From Cutibacterium equinum (GTDB taxonomy: Bacteria; Actinomycetota; Actinomycetes; Propionibacteriales; Propionibacteriaceae), in assembly GCF_028021195.1 (NCBI RefSeq), contig NZ_CP115668.1, positions 496,001 through 560,000 on the forward strand: a stretch of DNA of 64,000 nt. The letters are read 5' to 3'. The notes below the pieces were generated by a model that saw only the letters and a list, made by a program, of their open reading frames with translations, searched no databases and was not told where the DNA came from. A program made the translations under genes and the position numbers. Shown piece by piece: positions 4,049 through 49,617 of the stretch; position 1 is the first letter of the stretch, and each line of letters starts with the position of its first letter.

Positions 4049-7000
4049 GTGTCTGTAGATGAGACGTTGACGCTTGCGAAACTGCGCCCGGGGCAACGCA
4101 TCCGTGGCCTGGTGCCGAGGCAAACGATCACTCTCATCGCCATTGACCCCATCGACTCAGGACTGATCGAGGTGTCCTACCGAGACGATTCTGGTCGAAA
4201 TAGTGCCTGCGTGGTCACTGATGCCGACGTTGTGCGCTTCGAGATCGTGGGCGACGACTCGGCGCCGGCATTTGATGCTGACCCGGATGAGTTCCGCCTC
4301 GCAGCCGAAGCACTGCGCATCAAATATGCCGCGCGGTATGACCCGATGGTTGCGGTCAACAGTTCTGATGTTGATCCGCTGCCGCACCAGATTCGTGCGG
4401 TCTATGAGGAGTTGTTGCCCCGTATCCCGCTGCGATTCCTGTTGGCCGATGACCCCGGTGCGGGCAAGACGATCATGGCTGGGCTGTACGTGAAGGAGTT
4501 GATCCTCCGCTCGGACTGCGACCGGGCGCTCATCGTCGCTCCTGGTGGTTTGGTTGAGCAGTGGCGCGAAGAGTTGTTGCAGAAGTTCAACCTCCGCTTC
4601 GAGGTGTTCTCTCGGCAGATGGCAGATGATGCTCAGGGGCGCAATCTCTTTGCCGAACACCCGTTCCTGATCGCGCGCATGGATCAACTCTCCCGCAGTG
4701 AAGACCTTGTCGAGCAGCTGGGTGAGGTCACCTGGGATGTCGCCGTCGTGGACGAGGCGCATCGCATGTCAGCGCACTACTCGTCGTGGGCGGGCGAGGT
4801 CGATGAGACCAAACGGTTCAAACTGGGTCGCCTGTTGTCGGAGACGGCGCACAATTTCTTGCTGATGACCGCTACCCCGCACGCGGGCAAGGAGGAGGAT
4901 TTCCAGCTTTTCCTGTCGCTACTGGATCGTGACCGCTTTGAGGGCCAGTATCGGCAGGGGGTGCACCGCAGCGACACCAAGGGTCTCATGCGCCGGATGG
5001 TCAAGGAAGACCTGCTCACCTTCGAGGGCAAGCCGCTATTCCCCGAACGCCGGGCCTACACCGTCGAGTACGAACTCAGCCCCGCCGAACGGGAGCTCTA
5101 CGAACTGGTCACCGACTACGTTCGTACCGAGATGGGCCGAGCCGAACGGATTGCTCAGGCCGGCGACAAGAAGCGCGGCAACAACGTCGGATTCGCGCTC
5201 ACCGTGCTGCAACGCCGTCTGGCCTCCAGCCCCGAAGCGATCCTGCGATCCCTGGAACGACGCAGGCAGCGCCTTGACGCGAAATTGCGCGACATGCAGC
5301 GCATCACCGACGATGCGCGCTTCGACGCTTCCGTCTCCTCGTACGTCGATGACCGCCCCGCCGGCAAGGTCACGTTCGACTTCGGAAGCGACGCGCTGCC
5401 CGCGTTCTCGGTTGATGATTTCGAAGACTTCGACGAGGAGACGACCGAGGAGGAACGCGCTCAGTTTGAGCAACAGGCAGACCAGGTCGTCGATCTTGCC
5501 ACGGCCGCACAGACAATCCCCGAGCTTCAAGCTGAGATCGCGAGCCTTGATGACCTCATTACGGTCGCTCGTCGCGTCAGGTTGCAAGACGATGACCGGA
5601 AGTGGGTGCAACTGCGCACCATCCTCGACAAGCAGCTCCTGACCCACGACGGCTCCGGCGATACGCGCAAGATCGTCATCTTCACTGAACACCGCGACAC
5701 CCTCGACTACCTGCAAGCCAAGATCACCGCCCAGTTCGGCCGCGCCGATTCGGTCGTCACCATCCACGGCGGCACTCGCCGCGAGGATCGTAAGCTGGCA
5801 CGCGAACGGTTCACCCACAACCCAGACACTGTGGTTCTCCTTGCCACGGACGCCGCAGGGGAGGGGCTGAACCTGCAGCGCGCGCACCTCATGGTCAACT
5901 ATGACCTGCCGTGGAATCCCAACCGCATCGAGCAGCGCTTCGGCCGCATCCACCGTATCGGCCAGCGTGAGGTCTGCCATCTGTGGAATATGGTCGCCAA
6001 AGACACCCGTGAGGGCGACGTGTTCACCCGGTTGCTGGCAAAGATCAATCAGATGTCAGAGGCGTACAACGGCAACCTGTTCAACGTGCTCGGCGATGCC
6101 GACGCCTTTCAGGAGCGGTCCCTGCGCGACCTGCTGATCGAGGCCATCCGCTACGGCGATCAGCCCCAGGTCAAGGCCAAACTCGACCAGACCATTGACG
6201 CCGGTGTCTCTCGCGGTCTCGACGAGATGCTTGCCGAACGCGCGCTCCACCCCGAGATGTTCTCCGCGTTCGACCTCGACGAGGTCCGGGCACGGATGGA
6301 AAAAGCCCGTGAACGTCGACTTCAGCCGGGATACATCGCCGCCTTCTTCATTCCCGCATTTGAACGTCTGGGCGGGCGCATCCGCAAGCGAGAGCAAGGC
6401 CGCTACAAGATCACCCGCGTCCCAGCCCGCGTGATCGACGTCGCGCGTCGCCGCAACCGGTGGGCGCCTCTCGCCGAGCAGTACGAGCGCATTACCTTCG
6501 AGCCTTCCCGGATGCATCCTGACGGGCTTGCCGATGCCTCCCTCATTGCGCCCGGCCATCCGCTGCTGGACGCCGTCATCGAGGCCACTGTCGATGACCT
6601 CGGCCCCACCCTCCAACGGGGCACGGTGCTGGTGGATCGACGCCATGAGCAATCCGATGCGCCGATGTTAATGTTCAGCGTCGAGCAGCGCATCAAGAAT
6701 ACGGCTGCTGATGCGGACACGGTTTCTCATCACTTCGATTACCCGCTGCTCGAACAAGACGGTACCGTCACCGTCTCCGCAGCGCCGCCTTACCTTGACT
6801 ACGATCGCCCCGAACCCCAGGAAATTGAAGCCATCATCGAGATCGTCGGTAACGAATGGGTGCGTCGAAATCACGAGAAGAGCGTGCGCGCCTGGGCCTA
6901 CCGCGAGGGGCTGCAACCCCGGATGGACGAGATCAAGACCCGGCTCAATGCCGAGACTGCCCGCACTCGTGCGCAAGTCAAGGATCGGCTGCTGGCTGAG

Positions 7001-7639
7001 ATCAACCATTGGGATCAGGAATACAACCGCCTTGAAGCACTCGAACGGGCGGGCACCGTCGGCCGGCTGCGCTCCGAGACGGCCCTTGCTCGCGCCCGCG
7101 AGCTGGAAGGACGGCTGGCTCAGCGGCTCGCGCAGCTCGACGAGGCCACTCACCTTGTCGCGGTGCCCGCCCTCATCCGTGCAGCTGCACTCGTCATTCC
7201 CAGCGCTCTGCTCGCGACCGGCGCCGAGTCCGAGGCGCGAGCCGTAGCACGTCAGACCGAAGAAGTTGAGCGTCGAGCGGTCGACGCTGTGCTTGCCGCT
7301 GAGCGGGAGCTGGGACGTGAACCTGTCGAGATGCCGCGTAACAACCCCGGCTACGACATTCGATCCACCGACGACCAGGGCTTCGTTCACTACATCGAGG
7401 TGAAGGGTCGTATTGAGGGGTCTGACACGTTCACCATCACCACCAACGAGATCACCTTCGCGCAAACTCAGGGTGATCGGCATCGGCTCGCCTTGGTCGA
7501 GGTGTCGGCCGATGGCCCACAGCGCGATGAACTGCGTTACGTGAGCGACGCCTTCACCCACCTGGAACCCTCCGCGACCACCCGTTCCTACAATGAGGTC
7601 TGGGGTGACTACTGGGAACGCGGAGATCCACCGCGATGA
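4049..7639 (+). CDS. SNF2/DEAD-like helicase with C-terminal DUF3883, component of a helicase-methylase-ATPase defence locus
   Basis: 1196 aa. Residues 105-690 form a two-lobed SF2 helicase: Walker A in DDPGAGKT (134-141), DEAH box 235-238, TATPH motif III, and a C-terminal lobe with TDAAGEGLNLQ and RFGRIHRIGQ (motifs V and VI) as in SNF2/RapA-like translocases. The C-terminus (about 1097-1165) has NPGYDI followed by HYIEVKG (E1117-K1119), a DUF3883 domain often adjoining helicases and resembling a PD-(D/E)XK nuclease core. A long charged linker lies between. The start GTG 4049 has GGAGGA five bases upstream. The stop overlaps the methylase start (ATGA), so they form one operon. In related defence systems the helicase is thought to translocate on invading DNA; this is inference. 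Confidence 0.9.
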   Translation: MSVDETLTLAKLRPGQRIRGLVPRQTITLIAIDPIDSGLIEVSYRDDSGRNSACVVTDADVVRFEIVGDDSAPAFDADPDEFRLAAEALRIKYAARYDPMVAVNSSDVDPLPHQIRAVYEELLPRIPLRFLLADDPGAGKTIMAGLYVKELILRSDCDRALIVAPGGLVEQWREELLQKFNLRFEVFSRQMADDAQGRNLFAEHPFLIARMDQLSRSEDLVEQLGEVTWDVAVVDEAHRMSAHYSSWAGEVDETKRFKLGRLLSETAHNFLLMTATPHAGKEEDFQLFLSLLDRDRFEGQYRQGVHRSDTKGLMRRMVKEDLLTFEGKPLFPERRAYTVEYELSPAERELYELVTDYVRTEMGRAERIAQAGDKKRGNNVGFALTVLQRRLASSPEAILRSLERRRQRLDAKLRDMQRITDDARFDASVSSYVDDRPAGKVTFDFGSDALPAFSVDDFEDFDEETTEEERAQFEQQADQVVDLATAAQTIPELQAEIASLDDLITVARRVRLQDDDRKWVQLRTILDKQLLTHDGSGDTRKIVIFTEHRDTLDYLQAKITAQFGRADSVVTIHGGTRREDRKLARERFTHNPDTVVLLATDAAGEGLNLQRAHLMVNYDLPWNPNRIEQRFGRIHRIGQREVCHLWNMVAKDTREGDVFTRLLAKINQMSEAYNGNLFNVLGDADAFQERSLRDLLIEAIRYGDQPQVKAKLDQTIDAGVSRGLDEMLAERALHPEMFSAFDLDEVRARMEKARERRLQPGYIAAFFIPAFERLGGRIRKREQGRYKITRVPARVIDVARRRNRWAPLAEQYERITFEPSRMHPDGLADASLIAPGHPLLDAVIEATVDDLGPTLQRGTVLVDRRHEQSDAPMLMFSVEQRIKNTAADADTVSHHFDYPLLEQDGTVTVSAAPPYLDYDRPEPQEIEAIIEIVGNEWVRRNHEKSVRAWAYREGLQPRMDEIKTRLNAETARTRAQVKDRLLAEINHWDQEYNRLEALERAGTVGRLRSETALARARELEGRLAQRLAQLDEATHLVAVPALIRAAALVIPSALLATGAESEARAVARQTEEVERRAVDAVLAAERELGREPVEMPRNNPGYDIRSTDDQGFVHYIEVKGRIEGSDTFTITTNEITFAQTQGDRHRLALVEVSADGPQRDELRYVSDAFTHLEPSATTRSYNEVWGDYWERGDPPR

Positions 7640-10464
7640 ACGGCCCCGACGACCAGCCCAAGACCAGCGAGAGAAACCCCGTGACCGACGCCACCAAGAA
7701 GAAGCTCATCGAAACCTCCCTCCCGTTGGAGGCGATTAATGACTCCTCGGCCAGGGAGAAGTCCATTCGGCACGGGCACCCCTCCACCTTGCACCTGTAC
7801 TGGTCACGCAAACCGTTGGCCACTGCTCGGGCGGTTCTCTTTGCTCAGTTGGTGGATGACCCCAGTTCTCGACCCGAGGAGTTCCCCACGGTCGAGGCGC
7901 AGGACGCTGAGCGTGCCCGGCTGCATGCGCTGCTGGAGAAGCTCGTCGTCTGGGAGAACAGTAACGACGAAACGCTGCAGCAGCAGGCTCGTGAGGAGAT
8001 CCGCAAATCCAACAACGGAGAACTTCCGGCCGTTCTCGATCCATTCGCCGGCGGTGGCTCGATCCCGCTGGAAGCCCAGCGACTCGGACTGGAGGCCCAT
8101 GCCAGTGACCTCAACCCGCTGGCTGTGCTCATCAACAAGGCCCTCATCGATATCCCGCCGAAGTTCGCCGACCGGCCGCCGGTGTTTCCAGGAGCCGCCG
8201 ATTCGGCGAACAGTTGGCGGCGCGCTGAAGGCTTGGCCGAGGACATCCGGCGCTACGGCCAGTGGATGCGAGACGAGGCTGAGCGGCGCATCGGTCACCT
8301 ATACCCGAAAGTGCGCGCAGAGGATGGCACGGAGCACACGGTGATCGCCTGGAAATGGGCCCGCACTGTGAGAAGCCCCAACCCGGCAAACCCGATCGAG
8401 GTGCCGCTGGTCAACTCGTGGTGGCTCAGCAAGAAGAAGGGTAAGGAAGCCTGGGTGCACGCATCCGTCGTTGACGGCGAGGTGCGCTACGAAGTCCGGC
8501 ACGACGCCAATGGGCCGACTGGCGAGGATGAGTGGACCATCAAACACGGCAAGGGAGCAAAGGCCGTTGGCGATGGCACACCATTCAGCTACGACTACAT
8601 CCGAGAAGAAGGCCTCGGCGGCAGGATCGGAGCACACCTCATAGCGGTTGTGGCGGAGGGGCTGCGGGGACGTCTATACCTTTCGCCTTCCGAAGACCAA
8701 CGCCAAGCTGCCCATGTCTCTCGACCTGGCATTGGCGAAGACGGTAAGATCGCAACGAACCCGCGCTGGTTCTCCCCGCCTGCATACGGCATGACCCAAT
8801 TCTCAGATCTATTCACCAATCGCCAACTGGTCGTGCTGACAACGTTCAGCGACTTGGTGACACAGGCGCGCCAGAAAGTCCTCGAGGATGCGCTCAAATC
8901 TGGTATGACCGCCGGCTCCCGACTCGAGGACGGCGGCTCCGACGCCGAAGCCTACGCCGACGCGATCGCGACCTACTTGGCTCTGGCCGTCAGTCGTACC
9001 ACCGACTATTCATCAAATCTTTGCAGCTGGCACAACACTGGCGAGAAAATGCGGAATGTCTTTGGCCGGCAGGCGATCCCGATGGTGTGGGATTTCGCTG
9101 AAAGTAACCCGCTGTCTCATTCGTCGGGGAATTTCCTCGGGCAGGTGGAATGGGTGGCGAAAGCCGTGGCACATACGCCGGCTTCGCGCCCTGCGTCTGC
9201 CCAGCAAGCCGATGCTCTGACGCGAGATTACGGCGGCTTGGTGATTTCCACCGATCCGCCCTACTACGACAACATCGGCTACTCGGATCTCTCCGATTTC
9301 TTCTACGTCTGGTTGCGGCAAAGCCTGTCAAGTATTCAGTCCAAGACCGTTGGAACCATGCTGACTCCGAAATCTGCTGAACTCGTCGCGAACCCCTACC
9401 GGCACGATGGCCGTGCCGGTGCAGAGCGTTTCTTCGTCGACGGTTTCAACGGGGTCTTCCACCAAATTCGGCAAGGCGCCCGATCTGACATCCCCATGAC
9501 GGTCTACTACGCCTACAAGCAGCAGGACTCCAAGGCGGACGGCACCACATCAACCGGGTGGCACACCCTGCTGAGCGGGTTGATCGCAGCGGGCTGGGAG
9601 ATCACCGCAACCTGGCCCATGCGCAGTGAACTGTCCAACCGGATGCTTTCGCACGGCACCAACGCGCTGGCTTCGTCGATCGTCCTGGCTTGTCGCCCGC
9701 GCCCCGAGAATGCCCCTTCGACCACTCGTCGGGCCTTCGTCTCCGAACTGAAAGCCGAGCTACCAGAAGCACTGCGCACCATGATCCAGGGGTCGGTCGC
9801 TCCCGTGGATCTCGCCCAGGCTGCGATCGGCCCAGGTATTTCCGTGTTTTCGCGCTATTCACGGGTACGCGAGGCTGACGGGTCCGACATGAGCGTCAAG
9901 GATGCCCTGCTGCTCATCAACGCGACCCTCGATGAGGTCATCGGGGAGCAGGAGTCCGACTTTGACCCCGACACTCGTTTCGCCGTCAAGTGGTATCGCC
10001 AATATGGATGGGGTCAGGAGAGCTCGGGGATTGCCGACCAGTTGGCACGGTCCTCGGACACCTCGATCGGTGGGCTGGAGCGTGGCGGCATCTTTGAGGC
10101 CAAAGGCGGTCAGGCAAGACTGTTGTCGCCTTCGTACCTGGACGGCGACTGGGATGTCTCGGCCGATGAGCGCGTCAGTGTTTGGGAGGCGACGGTTCGC
10201 CTCGCTGCCGTGATGGCCAAGGACGGGGCCGACAAGGTGGCGGAGTTGCTGCCGTCGGTGCAGACGCGCATGAACCTGGACGCAGTGAAGGAGCTGGGCT
10301 TCCTGCTGTTCCACGAGGCTGAGAAGAAGAAGGACACGCAGGACGCCATCCTTTTCAACAGCCTGGTCAGCGCATGGAACGACGTCAACGAGCAGGCGCA
10401 CAAGTACGCCGCGACACCACGTCCTTCGCAGCAGGCCTTCGACTTCGATGAGGGCGATGATTAG
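7636..10464 (+). CDS. DUF1156-family DNA adenine-specific methylase, defence locus
   Basis: 942 aa. The N-terminus KKLIETSLPLEAINDSSARE with IRHGHPSTLHLYWSRKPL is the DUF1156 signature of large defence-associated methylases. DPFAGGGSIPLEA (motif I, from residue 135) binds S-adenosylmethionine. DPPYYDN (motif IV, 540-546) is the catalytic loop of N6-adenine/N4-cytosine methylases. It probably modifies host DNA so that the partner proteins spare it; the site is unknown. ATG 7636 overlaps the helicase stop by four bases. A GTG at 7681 is an alternative start and is where many homologues begin. No DUF3780 gene, often seen in this family of loci, was recognised next to it. Confidence 0.9.
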   Translation: MNGPDDQPKTSERNPVTDATKKKLIETSLPLEAINDSSAREKSIRHGHPSTLHLYWSRKPLATARAVLFAQLVDDPSSRPEEFPTVEAQDAERARLHALLEKLVVWENSNDETLQQQAREEIRKSNNGELPAVLDPFAGGGSIPLEAQRLGLEAHASDLNPLAVLINKALIDIPPKFADRPPVFPGAADSANSWRRAEGLAEDIRRYGQWMRDEAERRIGHLYPKVRAEDGTEHTVIAWKWARTVRSPNPANPIEVPLVNSWWLSKKKGKEAWVHASVVDGEVRYEVRHDANGPTGEDEWTIKHGKGAKAVGDGTPFSYDYIREEGLGGRIGAHLIAVVAEGLRGRLYLSPSEDQRQAAHVSRPGIGEDGKIATNPRWFSPPAYGMTQFSDLFTNRQLVVLTTFSDLVTQARQKVLEDALKSGMTAGSRLEDGGSDAEAYADAIATYLALAVSRTTDYSSNLCSWHNTGEKMRNVFGRQAIPMVWDFAESNPLSHSSGNFLGQVEWVAKAVAHTPASRPASAQQADALTRDYGGLVISTDPPYYDNIGYSDLSDFFYVWLRQSLSSIQSKTVGTMLTPKSAELVANPYRHDGRAGAERFFVDGFNGVFHQIRQGARSDIPMTVYYAYKQQDSKADGTTSTGWHTLLSGLIAAGWEITATWPMRSELSNRMLSHGTNALASSIVLACRPRPENAPSTTRRAFVSELKAELPEALRTMIQGSVAPVDLAQAAIGPGISVFSRYSRVREADGSDMSVKDALLLINATLDEVIGEQESDFDPDTRFAVKWYRQYGWGQESSGIADQLARSSDTSIGGLERGGIFEAKGGQARLLSPSYLDGDWDVSADERVSVWEATVRLAAVMAKDGADKVAELLPSVQTRMNLDAVKELGFLLFHEAEKKKDTQDAILFNSLVSAWNDVNEQAHKYAATPRPSQQAFDFDEGDD

Positions 10465-10467
10465 GTC

Positions 10468-10587
10468 ATGGGGAAAGCACTTGCCGATTTGGTGGCTATC
10501 CCACCGCGAACGTTCGCACCTTCAGTGCGTCCAGCACGGCACCTGCTGTCGACGCAGCTGGCTGCACTCGTCGAAGAGCAGGTGTGA
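10468..10587 (+). CDS. Possible 39-aa ORF between methylase and Abi-like gene
   Basis: ATG 10468 lies three bases after the methylase stop, and its TGA at 10585 lies three bases before the next ATG. The spacing is what a translationally coupled small gene would show. The product begins MGKALADLVAIPPRTFAPSV and ends LLSTQLAALVEEQV, with a mixed N-terminal half and a leucine/alanine-rich helix at the end. I recognise no family. It may be a genuine small component, a coupling ORF, or a remnant of a longer gene. Confidence 0.4.
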   Translation: MGKALADLVAIPPRTFAPSVRPARHLLSTQLAALVEEQV

Positions 10588-10590
10588 GCG

Positions 10591-11373
10591 ATGATGAGTG
10601 AGTCGCGGGGACAGATACCGGCTGACGAAAATTGCCCCGGCGCGGCGACCGCTCATGCGGCCTCGTCCGGGGCTTACACAAGCGAGTGTACAGCAGCGGG
10701 ATCCGCCGGACAACGTGTTCGAGAGTCTGAACTGACGCGCCTACTCAGTGCAGGGAGGCTATCCACCTACCTCCAAGCCTGCGACGGCAACGTGAACAAG
10801 GCCTTGCGCCTCTACTTGTGGAACATCGAGATCGCTTCGGCTTTCTGGGGCGGCTTTAGCGTGCTTGAAGTCGCTTTACGCAACGTGATCCACAGTGAGC
10901 TCAGCACCTTTGCCGGGCGAGACGACTGGTGGAACGCGAACATCGGCCTGCACCAGCTTGAACAGCACCGTGTTGCTGATGCCGTCGCAGCAGCGCAGCG
11001 CGGGAAGGGAGAGGCCGTCCTTCCTGGACACGTGGTGGCTGAGCTGAGCTTTGGGTTCTGGACCGGACTCCTGGCCAATAGGTATCACCAGCGGCTGTGG
11101 GTCCCAGCGCTTCACGGGGCGTTTCCGTACCTCGTCGGACCTCGCCGCGAGCTGCACCGCAAACAGGAGTCGCTCCGGAAGCTTCGTAACCGTATTGCTC
11201 ATCACGAGCCGATCTTCGCGCGTAACCTCACCGCAGACCACGAGCGGCTGCTCAGCATCCTCGGTGCGATCTCGCCGATTGCCGTTGACTGGGTGAATCA
11301 GAACTCGCGAGTACCGCAGATCATCTCCCGGCGAACCAATGTAGTTACTGGGATTGAAAGCACCACGTTCTAG
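10591..11373 (+). CDS. Abi-like HEPN-domain protein embedded in the defence operon
   Basis: 260 aa. From about residue 47 the sequence LTRLLSAGRLSTYLQ, then ALRLYLWNIEIASAFW and VLEVALRNVIH, matches Abi-like (Abi_2/AbiD-F related) proteins. LRNRIAHHE (198-206) carries the HEPN motif Rx4H (R199...H204), the catalytic signature of HEPN ribonucleases. The first 45 residues are low-complexity and a later start is possible, but ATG 10591 fits the four-base gene spacing. It sits between the methylase and the ATPase genes on the same strand, with nine bases to the next ATG. Such proteins are predicted to cut RNA and stop growth of infected cells; here its activity may be gated by the neighbours (inference). 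Confidence 0.8.
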   Translation: MMSESRGQIPADENCPGAATAHAASSGAYTSECTAAGSAGQRVRESELTRLLSAGRLSTYLQACDGNVNKALRLYLWNIEIASAFWGGFSVLEVALRNVIHSELSTFAGRDDWWNANIGLHQLEQHRVADAVAAAQRGKGEAVLPGHVVAELSFGFWTGLLANRYHQRLWVPALHGAFPYLVGPRRELHRKQESLRKLRNRIAHHEPIFARNLTADHERLLSILGAISPIAVDWVNQNSRVPQIISRRTNVVTGIESTTF

Positions 11374-11382
11374 GAGACAACG

Positions 11383-14300
11383 ATGGCGATGAACAACCGA
11401 GACAGAGTGGGCAAAGCGTTCGACCTCCTCTCCGAAGGACTGCTCGATCTGGTCGATGAGGTCATGACGGGGGTCTACCAAACTCCCGAGTGGACAGCCG
11501 CGTGGGCGAAGCAGGACGCCCAACGGCGGGGCGTGCCGGAGCGCACCATGACCAAGCACGATGTGCAGGTGCAGCTTCGTGCCATTACGGAACAGGGATA
11601 CCACTTCAAGGACGTGCTTTCCCGAGCGCAGCAAGGCTTTGCGTCCGAGTTGCGGGAGACGCGGAACCAATGGGCGCACAACGAGCCCTTCTCCTCCGAC
11701 GACGCAGCCCGCGCGCTCGACACCATCGAGCGGCTGCTGCGCGCCGTCGATTCGATCGATTCCGCTGAGGACGTGCGAAAGCTGCGCGTCGATCTGCAAC
11801 GCGCTGTGTTCGAGGACCAAACCCGGCAGCAGGTCAGGCGCACCAAGGTGTCCCTCGAGCCAGGATCCGGCCTACGCCCGTGGCGCGAGGTCATCCGCCC
11901 CCACGATGACGTGGCGCGTGGCGAGTTCACCGCCTCGGAGTTCGCGGCCGATCTGCATTTGGTCCACACCGGGCAGGCGACGAGCCCCGAGTATGGCGAT
12001 CCGGTCGAGTTCTTCGCCCGCACCTATCTCACCGAGGGGTTGCGTGATCTGCTGTCGCGCGCGCTGCGTCGAATGAGCGGCGAGGCGAGTGCGAGTCCGG
12101 TGGTGAATCTGCAGACCAACTTCGGTGGCGGCAAGACTCACTCCATGCTGGCGCTGTACCACCTGTTCAGCGGCACACCGGTCAAGGCCTTCCCTCAGGA
12201 GCTTCAGGATCTCATTGCCGACAACGGGAACCCCGACCTCAGTGCCCTCGACGTGCGACGGGTCGCCCTCGTCGGCACTTATCTGAAGGCCGGGTCACCG
12301 AGCATCAAGGACGACGGTACTGAAGTCCACACGCTGTGGGGTGAACTCGCATGGCAGCTCGGTGGGCGCGAAGCCTACGACCTCATCGCCGAGGACGACC
12401 GTGCCGGTACCAACCCTGGTGGTGCCCTGCGCGAGCTGATCGTGCGTCACTCGCCCGCACTCATCCTCATCGACGAGTGGGTGGCCTACGCGCGCCAGCT
12501 CGTCACCGACAAGGAACTGCCGTCCGGATCGTTCGAGACCCAGTTCACCTTCGCCCAGTCGCTGACGGAGATTGTCCGCTCCGTGCCGGGTGTGATGCTG
12601 GTGGTCTCGATCCCGGCCTCCGACAGTGGTGCGGAAGTGCGCGGCAGCGACATCGAGATCGGTGGCGCGAACGGCCAACTCGCGCTCGAACGCCTCCAGA
12701 ACGTGATCCGCCGAGTCGCTGACCAGTGGCGGCCATCGAGCAAGGACGAGTCATTCGAGATCGTCCGCCGCCGACTCTTTCAGGCCCCCGATGCCGAAGG
12801 ACTCACGACCATCTCGGCTGTGGCGCGCAGCTTCGCAAATCTGTACCGCAGCAACACCGCGCTGTTCCCACGCGATGCGGCCTCGCCCAACGACGACTAC
12901 GAGAAACGCATCCGCGCTTCTTACCCTCTGCACCCCGAGCTGCTGGATCGTCTCTACGAGGACTGGTCGACGCTGGAGCGATTCCAGCGCACCCGTGGCG
13001 TGCTGAAGCTCGTCTCCTCAATCGTGCACGAGCTGTGGGCAGCCGGCGACACCTCACCGCTGATCCTGCCCGGCAATGTGCCGCTGGATGCGACAACCGT
13101 GAACACCGACCTGACTCAGTACCTCGAAGACCAGTGGAAGCCGATCATCGACTCCGACATCGACGGCCCGGGCTCAACGGCACAAAAGATTGACCTCGAC
13201 CGGCCCAACCTTGGACAGCGATTCGTCACTCAGCGCATCGCGCGCACGATCTTCATGGGGGCGGCCCCCCGCATCAAGAGCACACACAAGGGATTGGACA
13301 AGCAGTACCTCTGGCTCGGCACCGCAGTTCCCGGCGACACGCTCGGAAACTTTGGCAGTGCGGTCGAGCAGCTCGCGCAGCGCTCCACCTATTTTTACGA
13401 AGAGCAGGGCCACTACTGGTTCGACACCCAACCGTCCGTCACGAAGACCGCGAACGACTACGCCGAGCGGCTCCGCGAGGACGTCGAAACGGTGTGGAAT
13501 GAGATCACCCGCCGACTCCAGGCCGAGGAGCGTTCGCGTGGCGTGTTCGACCGGGTCCACATTGCCCCGTCGTCGTCTGCAGACATCCCCGACCTCGAAG
13601 AGACGCGCTTGGTAATCGCGCACCCCAGGCACGCCCGTCGCAAGCAGGACACTGCCGACTCACCGGCCCACGTCTGGGTCCGCCAGGCCATCGAGAGCAA
13701 GGGCGCGAGCCAACGCATTCACCGCAACACACTGATCTTCCTACTCGCAGACAAGAGCGAACTGGAAAGCCTTGAAGCGGCCACCCGAAGCTACCTCGGG
13801 TGGAAGCGAGTCCAGGCCACCAGCGACAGTCTCAACCTGTCCGCGCAGCAGCGCAAGCAGACCGACGACTGGGTCTCCCGGCTCAATCAGACCGTCTCCG
13901 ACCGCATCCGCGACACCTTCGTGTGGGCGGTCTACCCGGAGCAGTCCGACCCGACCAAGCCGTTCGAACTTGTCGCCGACCGTGTACCCGATTCCGGCGG
14001 ACGTTCCTTGACCGAGCGCGTCAGTGCCAAGCTCGCACGTGAGGATCAGCTCGTCACCGACTTCGGTGCGGCGATCCTCGGCTCCATCCTGCACAACGAA
14101 CTCAGCGCGCTGTGGCGTGAGGCCGGCGAGATCACCGTCGGCGAGTTGTGGGGATACTTCACCCGCTATACTTACCTGCCCCGCCTCGTGCGGCGCGACG
14201 TGCTCGACAATGCCATCGAACAGTCGCTTGTGACACTGCTCGTCCACGATGAGCTGTTCGCCATCGCTTCTGGCAAGGACACCGTCACAGGCCGTTATCG

Positions 14301-14778
14301 CGGGCTCGTGGTGCCGCCCGACCCGAACGCAAGCATTCAGGTCACCGATAGCACTCTGCTTGTCGATGGCGACCGGGCCCAGCAGCAGATTGATTCTGAT
14401 CGGACGGCAGCCAGAGAAGCCGCTGACAAACAGGCAGACGACGGTGGCAAGAAGGCCTTCCCGGTGGATCTCGCATGGAGACGAACTCGTCAGCCTTCTT
14501 CCGACACCGATCCGTCTGACCCCGAGCCTGAGGTCGAAGCAGCGCTTTCGCGGTTCTTCGGCTCGGTCAAGATCGACCCAGATCGCTACTCGCGTGACAT
14601 CGGCAATATCACCCGCGAAGTCATTGACCGACTCTCCGGAGCCGGTGCGCACGTGGAGATCACCATCGACATCCAGGCCACCAAGCCTGAAGGCTTCGAT
14701 GAGGCAGAGATACGCACCATCAGCGAGAACGCCCGGGTTCTCAAGTTCAATCCCACTTCTGGCTTCGAGAGGAGTTGA
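11383..14778 (+). CDS. DUF499 ATPase with N-terminal HEPN-like (Swt1-type) domain, defence locus
   Basis: 1131 aa. Residues 1-125 resemble the Swt1-type HEPN domain, with RNQWAH (R94...H99) as Rx4H motif. A linker is followed by a P-loop ATPase: NFGGGKTHS (Walker A, 246-254) and LILIDEW (Walker B, D364-E365), the signature of DUF499 proteins accompanying DUF1156 methylases. The C-terminal half is likely an adaptor with winged-helix character. An AGGAG site ends 5 bases before ATG 11383. A strong hairpin follows the stop, marking the operon end. In such systems the ATPase is presumed to couple recognition to the effector; not demonstrable here. Confidence 0.88.
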   Translation: MAMNNRDRVGKAFDLLSEGLLDLVDEVMTGVYQTPEWTAAWAKQDAQRRGVPERTMTKHDVQVQLRAITEQGYHFKDVLSRAQQGFASELRETRNQWAHNEPFSSDDAARALDTIERLLRAVDSIDSAEDVRKLRVDLQRAVFEDQTRQQVRRTKVSLEPGSGLRPWREVIRPHDDVARGEFTASEFAADLHLVHTGQATSPEYGDPVEFFARTYLTEGLRDLLSRALRRMSGEASASPVVNLQTNFGGGKTHSMLALYHLFSGTPVKAFPQELQDLIADNGNPDLSALDVRRVALVGTYLKAGSPSIKDDGTEVHTLWGELAWQLGGREAYDLIAEDDRAGTNPGGALRELIVRHSPALILIDEWVAYARQLVTDKELPSGSFETQFTFAQSLTEIVRSVPGVMLVVSIPASDSGAEVRGSDIEIGGANGQLALERLQNVIRRVADQWRPSSKDESFEIVRRRLFQAPDAEGLTTISAVARSFANLYRSNTALFPRDAASPNDDYEKRIRASYPLHPELLDRLYEDWSTLERFQRTRGVLKLVSSIVHELWAAGDTSPLILPGNVPLDATTVNTDLTQYLEDQWKPIIDSDIDGPGSTAQKIDLDRPNLGQRFVTQRIARTIFMGAAPRIKSTHKGLDKQYLWLGTAVPGDTLGNFGSAVEQLAQRSTYFYEEQGHYWFDTQPSVTKTANDYAERLREDVETVWNEITRRLQAEERSRGVFDRVHIAPSSSADIPDLEETRLVIAHPRHARRKQDTADSPAHVWVRQAIESKGASQRIHRNTLIFLLADKSELESLEAATRSYLGWKRVQATSDSLNLSAQQRKQTDDWVSRLNQTVSDRIRDTFVWAVYPEQSDPTKPFELVADRVPDSGGRSLTERVSAKLAREDQLVTDFGAAILGSILHNELSALWREAGEITVGELWGYFTRYTYLPRLVRRDVLDNAIEQSLVTLLVHDELFAIASGKDTVTGRYRGLVVPPDPNASIQVTDSTLLVDGDRAQQQIDSDRTAAREAADKQADDGGKKAFPVDLAWRRTRQPSSDTDPSDPEPEVEAALSRFFGSVKIDPDRYSRDIGNITREVIDRLSGAGAHVEITIDIQATKPEGFDEAEIRTISENARVLKFNPTSGFERS

Positions 14779-14812
14779 GGTTCACCCGACGCGCCGATCG
14801 TCGGGTGAACCT
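14778..14812. terminator. Bidirectional hairpin terminator between the defence operon and corA
   Basis: A perfect 13-bp inverted repeat (AGGTTCACCCGAC, 14778-14790, and its complement 14800-14812) with a 9-base loop overlaps the last base of the ATPase stop codon. It serves convergent genes on both strands. Confidence 0.8.
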
Positions 14813-43079: not shown

Positions 43080-44048
43080 CTACTTGATCTGGTCGGTGAC
43101 GTCGACGCCGTGGGTGTCAAAGGCCGTGGAGACGCCGTCGACGGTGATGCGCATGATGGGGGCGTCAAGCTTCTTGTCCACGGCAATGGTCCATGCCATG
43201 TCCGAGGGTTCCTCACTGGTGCCGAATGCTGCCTGTTCCATGATGTCGACGATGACCCGTGGTTTCAGGAGAGTGGGGGAGAAGGTCTCGGTGGCATCTC
43301 CCTTGCGCTGGACGGCCCACGCCGGCATGTCGGCAGACCGAGTGCGCCTCATGACGATGCCAGACGTGGCGGTGGGGGTGTCGACCATGACTCCCTTGCC
43401 CGGCTGGTAACTGATCTGGCCAACCTCCTTGGCTCCAGCCACGGCGTCGGCCAAGGCCTCGGTCATGTCGGGGGCGGTGGCAAAATCGAGGTGGCTGATG
43501 ACTGACCCGTCGCGTCGGAAGAAGACCGTCCGACTTTCGGGTTTGGTCGAGACCGTCATCAAGACAGTGCCTTCGTTGTACTCGACGATCTGCAAGTTCT
43601 GGTTCATGTGAGACCCAGACACCTTGGCTGCCTCGCGCAGGATCGAGGGCATCTTCTCGACGGCGAAATCGTCAGGATTGAAGGGACGCGACGCCGTCTG
43701 TGTGCTCTGGGTGGCAGAGGACTCAATCGTCCCGTTCTGCCAGGTCCACACCGTGGGAGTGCTGCCAGTCTGGACGGTGATGCTCAGGGCTTTCTTGGTG
43801 ATGTCCACCTTGGTGATCGGGCCATTGCCTGACGCGGCTACCAGTTCGTCAATGATCGCCCGGGTGTGGATGCCGTCGAGCGGGGATATCGAGGCCGTGA
43901 CCTTGGAGGATGGGACCAGAGCGATACGGCTGGGCTCGTCCGAAGGAGCAGTAGGCGACGAGGAGTGACATGACGTGCACAGGCACAGCGTGGTCGCGCT
44001 GACGATCACGCTGGCAACTTGGCGAAACCCTTTGGCTCTAAACGTCAC
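43080..44048 (-). CDS. Probable lipoprotein, LolA/RseB-like fold
   Basis: 322 aa. The N-terminus has a basic start, a hydrophobic stretch and CLCTSCHSS, an atypical lipobox with the lipid cysteine probably at residue 27. The mature protein alternates beta-strands and short helices (SITVQTGSTPTVWTWQNGT, TVLMTVSTKPESRTVFFR), in the manner of LolA/RseB-like envelope proteins, but no motif clinches this. GTG 44048 follows TAGACT by six bases, the leaderless pattern. It precedes the NUDIX gene. Confidence 0.7.
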   Translation of the reverse strand: MTFRAKGFRQVASVIVSATTLCLCTSCHSSSPTAPSDEPSRIALVPSSKVTASISPLDGIHTRAIIDELVAASGNGPITKVDITKKALSITVQTGSTPTVWTWQNGTIESSATQSTQTASRPFNPDDFAVEKMPSILREAAKVSGSHMNQNLQIVEYNEGTVLMTVSTKPESRTVFFRRDGSVISHLDFATAPDMTEALADAVAGAKEVGQISYQPGKGVMVDTPTATSGIVMRRTRSADMPAWAVQRKGDATETFSPTLLKPRVIVDIMEQAAFGTSEEPSDMAWTIAVDKKLDAPIMRITVDGVSTAFDTHGVDVTDQIK

Positions 44049-44054
44049 GGAGTG

Positions 44055-44060
44055 AGTCTA
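44055..44060 (-). promoter_or_regulatory. -10 box of the lipoprotein gene, leaderless
   Basis: TAGACT on the minus strand, six bases before GTG 44048. Confidence 0.4.
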
Positions 44061-44220
44061 TGAGTAGTGGTGGGCTGGCTGACGACGGATGGCTCCTACC
44101 TCCCGTGACGACGCACGTATCACTGACGTGTACCCCGGGCATCGCGGACCGGGTGCGACGTCTCGTGACTTTCAGTGACATGCCGCTGACTAGGGGATAT
44201 GGCGGTTGGAGGGGTTGGGT

Positions 44221-44249
44221 TTGCGTTGGTGTGGGATTGTGTGTAATGT
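44221..44249 (+). promoter_or_regulatory. rrn promoter P1
   Basis: TTGCGT (44221-44226), 17-base spacer, TAATGT (44244-44249), about 470 bases before 16S. Confidence 0.55.
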
Positions 44250-44320
44250 TTTCCGAGCTGCCGGGGGCTGCGTGATGTGGTTTCTGGATGGTATCCATGC
44301 TGGATCCCTGCTTGTCGGGT

Positions 44321-44349
44321 TTGACGGTGGGTGTGGGTTTCGGTAAGGT
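44321..44349 (+). promoter_or_regulatory. rrn promoter P2
   Basis: TTGACG (44321-44326), 17-base spacer, TAAGGT (44344-44349), followed by TGATCGGGTCGC. The downstream ten bases nearly repeat those after P3, which argues that both are real. Confidence 0.7.
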
Positions 44350-44423
44350 TGATCGGGTCGCTGCCTTTGTGGGTGGTGGCGTGGTTTGGCTGGTTCTGCT
44401 GGTTGGCTTTTGGCTCTGCGGTT

Positions 44424-44452
44424 TTGTGGGGTTGGGGTTGGTGTGGTAGGGT
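44424..44452 (+). promoter_or_regulatory. rrn promoter P3
   Basis: TTGTGG (44424-44429), 17-base spacer, TAGGGT (44447-44452), followed by TGGTCGGGTCGC, matching the initial transcribed region of P2. Confidence 0.6.
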
Positions 44453-44517
44453 TGGTCGGGTCGCCTTCGGGGTGGTTCTGCCTGTTGTGGGTGGGGTTGT
44501 TTCGTGTGGGTGTGATG

Positions 44518-44540
44518 TTTGAGAACTCAACAGTGTGTCT
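44518..44540 (+). promoter_or_regulatory. rrn leader antitermination/processing element
   Basis: The leader contains TTTGAGAACTCAACAGTGTG, the conserved element in actinobacterial rrn leaders associated with antitermination and 16S precursor processing. The region 44050-44220 upstream of the promoters holds no gene I can support. Confidence 0.5.
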
Positions 44541-44719
44541 TTGATAGTCAATGATTTTTTTGATGCATCGTTTTGGATGTGTCGGATTTTGTTTATGAAT
44601 TCCTTTGTGATTCTGGACATGACTAAATTGTTTTTTGGTTAGTGTTTGGGGTCAGTGTTTTGGATTCTCTTGTGACACCGTGGCCTGCACCTTTTTTGTG
44701 TGTGGGTGGGTGATATTTT

Positions 44720-49617
<4,898 letters not shown>

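Follow-up and report, generated by a model that had tools for sequence, protein, structure and literature searches.

The systems named Hma by PADLOC in 2021, with HmaB called an m5C methylase (PMC8565338), were renamed bacteriophage exclusion (BREX)-related in a 2026 paper, in which HmaB is assigned as an N6 methylase, HEPN-fused HmaC is reported from 1370 taxa, auxiliary nucleases including HEPN proteins are described near or within the loci, and DUF3780 is given as the mark of Type-2 systems (PMC12839542). A second relevant system is AbiF. In Clostridioides difficile the upstream abiF RNA RCd22 acts on AbiFCd both in cis and in trans, neutralising it through direct binding, and abiF RNA mutants with a broken stem fail to do so (PMC12373285). 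A distant AbiF/D relative, the plasmid-borne PD-T4-5, conferred abortive defence on E. coli (PMC9519451). The elements already known are Hma, HEPN auxiliaries close to such systems, and AbiF together with its RNA. The subject here is an Hma operon (the window locus, positions 4049-14778) in a 64,000-nt stretch of Cutibacterium equinum contig NZ_CP115668.1 (the window, whose positions serve as coordinates throughout), in which a HEPN Abi gene and a conserved hairpin lie between hmaB and hmaC. With moderate confidence, this is read as a Type-1 BREX-related operon whose cargo slot would hold a HEPN RNase toxin and a silencing RNA leader as a back-up.

The original prediction, made from the letters alone, had proposed three large genes for a helicase, a DUF1156 methylase and a DUF499 ATPase in one tight operon and labelled them Hma. 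All three were found in place with matching domains, and the search with PADLOC hidden Markov models assigned their products to HmaA, HmaB and HmaC (Table 1), in the order A-B-C with the Abi gene inserted between B and C; the Abi-like HEPN gene that it described is a real insertion in the operon. The five open reading frames (ORFs) all lie on the + strand, hmaA and hmaB overlapping by 4 bp and the later gaps measuring 3, 3 and 9 bp. The hmaA product also matched SNF2/helicase C domains in the Pfam scan, and its NOV_C domain is taken to be the DUF3883 of the original prediction. In HmaB, DPFAGGG and DPPY are taken to be motifs I and IV. With alignment gaps counted as misses, the PD-(D/E)XK residues of HmaA were kept in 86/89 (D1103), 85/89 (E1117) and 85/89 (K1119) aligned homologues, the DPPY residues D540 and Y543 of HmaB each in 97/106, and R94 and H99 of the HmaC HEPN domain and its Walker K251 in 106/113, 111/113 and 112/113, so the Hma core looks intact. 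The HEPN_Swt1 domain of HmaC was absent from the original prediction, as were the weak coding signal of the 39-codon ORF (ORF39) and the hairpin within the opening codons of abi. DUF3780, which had been reported as not recognised, gave no Pfam match to E 0.1 among the 10 proteins scanned. By its sequence the locus is a Type-1 BREX-related (Hma) operon with a HEPN-fused DUF499 ATPase and a helicase carrying PD-(D/E)XK residues; no DUF3780 is expected, because that family marks Type-2.

Table 1. Features of the window locus (window coordinates).
Feature	Coordinates	Strand	Evidence
Predicted structured RNA leader element, hairpin core 10634-10673 (40 nt)	10620..10692	+	Sequence comparison and covariance models
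abi, Abi_2/PD-T4-5-like HEPN gene, R199-x4-H204	10591..11373	+	Abi_2 25.2 bits; PADLOC PD-T4-5 9e-12
hmaA, SNF2-type helicase with C-terminal NOV_C / PD-(D/E)XK-like domain (~7265-7519)	4049..7639	+	PADLOC HmaA 1303 bits; NOV_C 1.4e-19
hmaB, predicted DUF1156 adenine-type DNA methyltransferase	7636..10464	+	PADLOC HmaB 1110 bits; DUF1156 1.6e-28
hmaC, DUF499 AAA+ ATPase with N-terminal Swt1-like HEPN domain (11413-11751)	11383..14778	+	PADLOC HmaC 877 bits; DUF499 1.3e-33; HEPN_Swt1 4e-32
3' seam of slot, abi stop codon overlapping hmaC ribosome-binding site	11367..11382	+	Same 16 nt in DUF1016 loci L108, L112, L114 and L118
ORF39, 39-codon ORF, possible truncated start of a lost DUF1016/YhcG nuclease gene	10468..10587	+	3 nt past hmaB stop; weak resemblance to DUF1016 N-terminus
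13-bp inverted repeat directly after hmaC stop, possible terminator without T run	14779..14811	.	Read by eye; not picked up by T-run terminator scan

Homologues of HmaC were collected from 396 phylum genomes (38 with a match), 394 class genomes (32), 57 relatives (6) and named genomes (the best 79 of at least 575 confirmed loci). The phylum, class and relative sets gave 44 longer stretches (L062-L105), with far matches lacking the HEPN part and most very short contigs left out, and the final sample comprised 124 loci including the window locus, 113 of them non-redundant. The core order A-B-C held in relatives when gene order was compared as the original prediction had proposed, while the hmaB-hmaC insert varied. 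That gap, evaluable in 107/113 loci, was at most 100 bp in 69, 100-250 bp in 4 and more than 250 bp in 34. The 34 filled slots carried mostly nuclease or toxin genes: GmrSD-type genes in 13 and DUF1016/YhcG genes in 10, one of the latter accompanied by a ribbon-helix-helix (RHH) gene and a PemK/MazF toxin. Six cargoes were each of a single kind, namely the window Abi gene, a helix-turn-helix (HTH) gene with peptidase M78, a PIN gene beside an ORF that we take to be MazE/AbrB-like, NOV_C with HEPN, MqsA with a SecB-like gene, and a NERD-like nuclease just below the cut-off; five slots had no family assignment. Family names were assigned with Pfam on representatives and extended to cluster members by blastp. 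The hmaA-hmaB gap, evaluable in 90/113 loci, was at most 100 bp in 64, 100-250 bp in 3 and more than 250 bp in 23, with DUF3800, Schlafen AlbA_2, HipA and SMODS genes among its cargo. Among five annotated Hma plasmids, three had no hmaB-hmaC insert, one had hmaB broken by an IS3 element, and Thermus thermophilus pVV8 carried HicAB and two HTH genes between hmaB and hmaC. On the tree, the 98 labelled loci required no fewer than 16 changes of slot state, whereas 100 shuffles averaged 28.1 and never fell below 25. Cargo is therefore inherited and still often swapped, and by this comparison the hmaB-hmaC junction is an exchangeable cargo slot, which would be a natural place to seek further defence genes.

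Two further observations were made at the junctions. At 9752-11067 of L070 the slot holds a three-gene cargo resembling a toxin-antitoxin-chaperone set (a short ORF, an MqsA-like and a SecB-like gene). The hmaA-hmaB junctions of L150, L157, L169, L173, L174, L177, L180 and L182 share a recurrent short-protein family, one member of which was scanned and gave no Pfam match.

The product of the window Abi gene scored slightly under the Pfam cut-off of 25.6 bits for Abi_2 (PF07751), and its Rx4H motif is present. Its relatives align from about codon 46 (10726), and RNRIAHHEPIF was invariant among the 6 Abi proteins compared. A search of solved structures with the protein returned 8 matches, the best at E 0.088 and none meaningful.

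The hairpin, of the form GCCCCGGCGCGGCGACCGC-4 nt-GCGGCCTCGTCCGGGGC, was first seen as a 47-bp match between the window slot and the slot of Propionibacterium australiense (L118), where it follows the DUF1016 gene and precedes the RHH and PemK/MazF (MazEF-like) pair between hmaB and hmaC. In L152, a metagenome-assembled genome of the Bifidobacteriaceae, it lies in the hmaA-hmaB gap, ahead of an Abi_2 gene (PF07751, 1e-41) whose protein has no detectable similarity to the window Abi. A repeat of about 45 bp, noticed by eye, flanks that copy at ~255 and ~481 of L152. The hairpin is single-copy in each of these three genomes. Among 177 Propionibacteriaceae genomes, 10 had a match, including the window's and that of P. 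australiense, and 9 new copies were obtained. Five of these adjoin a downstream Abi homologue (L270, L274, L277) or a fragment of one (L273, L276), and L272 sits at a contig edge; no Hma gene was found in the 3.7-12 kb stretches around the nine. DNA-level searches, which could not see the diverged copies later found by covariance models, returned one match at E 0.4 from 72,556 plasmids and, from 345 class genomes, 36 with a match at E <=0.01, of which the window's own was strong and the other 35 were short and weak (best 9e-4). In 28 Hma genomes they recovered the copies of L118 and L152 and one weak match at 4e-4, and an exact-pattern search of IMG/VR found none. No Rfam 15 family exceeded its curated cut-off on the hairpin, in window positions 10000-11500 or in eight leader loci; a match to sR10 (12.7 bits, cut-off 45) touches the 5' side of the leader and not the hairpin, and the other matches were weak or elsewhere.

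The link between hairpin and Abi family was assessed with covariance models. Model R1 was built from 12 hairpin copies and applied to 19 actinobacterial loci that had been selected solely for their Abi homologue, were no part of the model, and had no Hma gene in their flanks. On the Abi strand, a match no more than 100 nt 5' of the aligned Abi start, or overlapping it, was found in 16/19, rising to 18/19 when a smaller search admitted E values up to 1; scores at Abi loci were 10.8-22.7 bits, and L245 gave none. In the smaller search only 2/21 non-model matches lay elsewhere than before Abi. No further slot copy was detected by R1 in the 113 Hma loci or the five plasmids. The Abi leaders share a second consensus, GTGCCCCGGG-YGGC-RTGC-loop-GCAGAGGCG-CCCGGGGC-TTAC, and model R2, built from 14 such leaders, was applied to a further 80 genomes, of which 47 had an Abi homologue and 33 were not among the Abi-positives (20 of the 33 shown to have been searched without a match). 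It gave 13 matches in 11 genomes, 8 of them within 60 nt of an Abi match start or overlapping it (7 on the same strand, 1 on the opposite). Copies in L290, L291 and L293 have no recognised Abi-like ORF beside them and may be solo or decayed copies or have other partners. Across 22 model-picked sequences, uncorrected for kinship, double-sided pair changes occupied 12 cells; shuffles gave 3.6 +/- 1.6 (0/500 reached 12), and slid controls no more than 5. A conserved hairpin is associated with this Abi family and stands directly upstream of the HEPN Abi gene, as in AbiF-type systems; the window hairpin overlaps the annotated frame at its first codons. By analogy, it is most likely an AbiF-like RNA antitoxin or leader. 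Silencing of Abi by the leader is what we infer with best support, because the hairpin stands where abiF RNA does, before a related HEPN protein.

Several results weigh against this interpretation. From the only early Abi starts, ATG 10591 or 10594, the hairpin lies inside the Abi frame; the next in-frame candidates are CTG 10732 and GTG 10792, with no ATG, GTG or TTG between the early ATGs and the conserved domain, and a separate RNA would therefore need a rare or late Abi start. Folding of the whole 264-nt leader was ordinary (z -0.58), further pair types did not exceed shuffles (206/500 as high), and the RNAalifold covariation terms were slightly unfavourable (+0.39, +0.31). The candidate that the leader is itself abiF RNA (RF03085) was rejected, there being no match to E 5 in window positions 10000-11500 or to E 2 in the eight leader loci. 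No Abi homologue was found near copies L275, L278 and L279, the partner in L118 is MazEF, and R1 also matched L115 (23.6 bits) outside a slot, 9 kb beyond hmaC. Five of the 13 R2 matches lay away from Abi, two of them in Abi-negative genomes, and under stricter filters a match adjoined Abi in 6/47 Abi-positive genomes; either R2 therefore has fair specificity without being sensitive, or the element is missing from many Abi genes. Finally, the window locus was the only one of the 113 to combine Hma with an Abi homologue of this family.

The overlap with the start of the reading frame also speaks for the strongest alternative, in which Abi is an independent single-gene abortive-infection cassette that borrows transcription from the operon and the hairpin is an ordinary 5' leader tuning translation or mRNA life. 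PD-T4-5 did provide abortive defence in E. coli (PMC9519451), and hairpin-bearing Abi homologues occur with no Hma genes in the stretches examined. An ordinary leader would not need what was observed, however: distant homologues retain the hairpin while showing double-sided changes in its base pairs, and in other Hma operons it also precedes a different Abi type and a MazEF-like pair. This alternative is considered rather doubtful. A PrrC-like guard, with the Abi RNase kept silent by the Hma complex until a phage inhibitor of Hma sets it free, is improbable. It has a precedent in PrrC, which a linked type I restriction enzyme holds silent and a phage anti-restriction factor switches on (PMC2610378), and the Abi gene does sit between the methylase and ATPase genes; but the same Abi family exists with no Hma beside it and the slot takes many unrelated cargoes, so a specific Abi-Hma contact is not expected, and because that Abi family lives alone this guard is less likely than silencing by RNA. 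A role of the hairpin in driving cargo exchange, as a recombination or cassette site in the DNA, is very improbable: copies do precede different cargo in two slots (B-C in the window and L118, A-B in L152), but most filled slots have no hairpin and most diverged copies adjoin Abi genes outside Hma, and the candidate integration site was not supported.

The history of the window slot was examined on an HmaC tree of 26 rows, built by a quick method that gave long-branch warnings for far rows. The window locus belongs to a supported set of 7, together with 6 loci whose HmaC is 87-92% identical to its own and which carry a DUF1016 nuclease in the B-C slot. The replacement left clean joins: in 8 loci the DUF1016 gene begins 3 nt after the hmaB stop, the position held in the window locus by ORF39, and the 3' seam is also shared (Table 1). 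HmaB is the fast-changing component: per 60-residue block its identity with five close relatives was 36-79% over the first 720 residues and 73-95% after. An older DUF1016 nuclease gene was probably replaced by the Abi module in the window locus, the direction of the swap being presumed.

ORF39, which the original prediction had counted as an extra component, is probably not one. At E 0.01 tblastn found no homologue of it in the 79 named loci, the 44 longer loci or, apart from the window's own, the short loci L001-L061, and its coding score fell between the true-frame and wrong-frame ranges; a functional small protein was rejected as an explanation. Among the Abi loci it had a sole match (L232, E 0.009), which runs antisense more than 1 kb away from the Abi gene. 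Compared with DUF1016 N-termini of relatives that are not independent of one another, its score was reached by 1 (L112), 6 (L108), 16 (L118), 35 (L114) and 599 (L106, not significant) of 5000 shuffles, and 0/368 39-residue pieces of the operon equalled its score against L112. DNA alignment gave no ORF39-DUF1016 resemblance, and in a tblastn search of the 124 loci no DUF1016 start was among the matches listed (best 12 to E 10). ORF39 is weakly suggested to be a remnant of the lost DUF1016 gene, because it has no recognised homologue among Hma loci, takes the DUF1016 start position and weakly resembles the N-terminus.

The mechanism proposed assigns to HmaB the methylation of self DNA, to the HmaC ATPase the assembly of a scanning complex, and to the HmaA helicase-nuclease the cutting of unmodified phage DNA. 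In the B-C slot the older DUF1016 gene would have given way to a two-part module, a HEPN toxin (Abi) with presumed RNase activity and its own structured RNA leader. The leader RNA would keep the RNase silent, by binding the protein or damping its translation, as abiF RNA does for AbiF. Phage take-over, through a stop in transcription or depletion of the RNA, might then free the RNase and lead to abortive infection when the DNA-cutting layer fails. More tentatively, and with less confidence than is placed in the window locus itself, an RNA-antitoxin family (a short hairpin in two subfamilies, not found in Rfam) may control actinobacterial AbiD/F-like HEPN RNases, the modules being plugged into Hma slots as suicide back-ups that fire on shutdown of the operon by phage.

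The VapBC pair that had been placed before the operon does lie there, as an RHH gene (weak, 0.033) and a PIN gene (3.7e-14) upstream of hmaA, and is probably not a component. A VapC homologue was found in one other distinct locus of the 124, there downstream, the search reaching a few kb upstream of hmaA per locus (1.8-3.6 kb in 8 loci). VapBC as part of the system was rejected, since it is not kept with other Hma loci within those flanks, and it seems to be a neighbour unrelated to Hma. A variable region of ~26.8 kb, from window -12011 (contig ~483990) to 14830, between tRNA-Ala(CGC) and corA, has Hma at its right end, where the operon stops ~50 bp short of DNA common to same-genus genomes. 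The corA side was matched in 9/9 genus genomes searched, the window's own included (partially in two); the tRNA-Ala-corA interval measured 0.4 to 3.5 kb in 3/6 same-genus stretches, and the other three did not align on the tRNA side. A transposase remnant lies beside tRNA-Ala. A search for a direct repeat of the tRNA end gave none, and none of 10 ORFs scanned matched an integrase. Elsewhere, window positions 44001-49000 have lower G+C content (0.54-0.58), mostly strong GC skew and few long ORFs, and may be an rRNA operon.

In the limited set of literature searched, no mention was found of the hairpin family, its actinobacterial Abi link or the Hma exchange slot; in PMC12839542 the term Abi_2 is absent from the main text, and the parts examined mention neither an exchange slot nor an RNA. 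Should the hairpin prove to be an antitoxin, the control by RNA of HEPN toxins (the proposed root of Cas13) would reach into Actinobacteria, by way of an RNA for which no Rfam 15 family was found, and the covariance models make both the candidate antitoxin RNA and the slot searchable and testable. With PrrC of EcoprrI (PMC2610378) the window module has in common an RNase toxin, here predicted, linked with a restriction-modification (RM) system, whereas Abi belongs to another protein family. PD-T4-5 resembles the window Abi in that the latter matches its PADLOC model; it was reported as a plasmid-borne E. coli gene (PMC9519451), whereas the window Abi is embedded in an RM-like operon. AbiF with its RNA is likewise a HEPN protein of the Abi_2/AbiD/F type with Rx4H and a conserved hairpin directly upstream. 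It differs in that the window leader has no RF03085 match, one hairpin is seen here and two abiF motifs in RCd22, and the hosts here are actinobacterial, those of abiF RNA being described from Bacillota and Pseudomonadota (PMC12373285). With the Hma or Type-1 BREX-related systems (PMC8565338, PMC12839542) the window locus shares the three core genes, the A-B-C order of its relatives, the HEPN-fused DUF499 ATPase, the PD-(D/E)XK-like C-terminus of the helicase and the absence of a DUF3780 match, and it is set apart from them by an Abi_2-like HEPN gene and a putative RNA leader between hmaB and hmaC.

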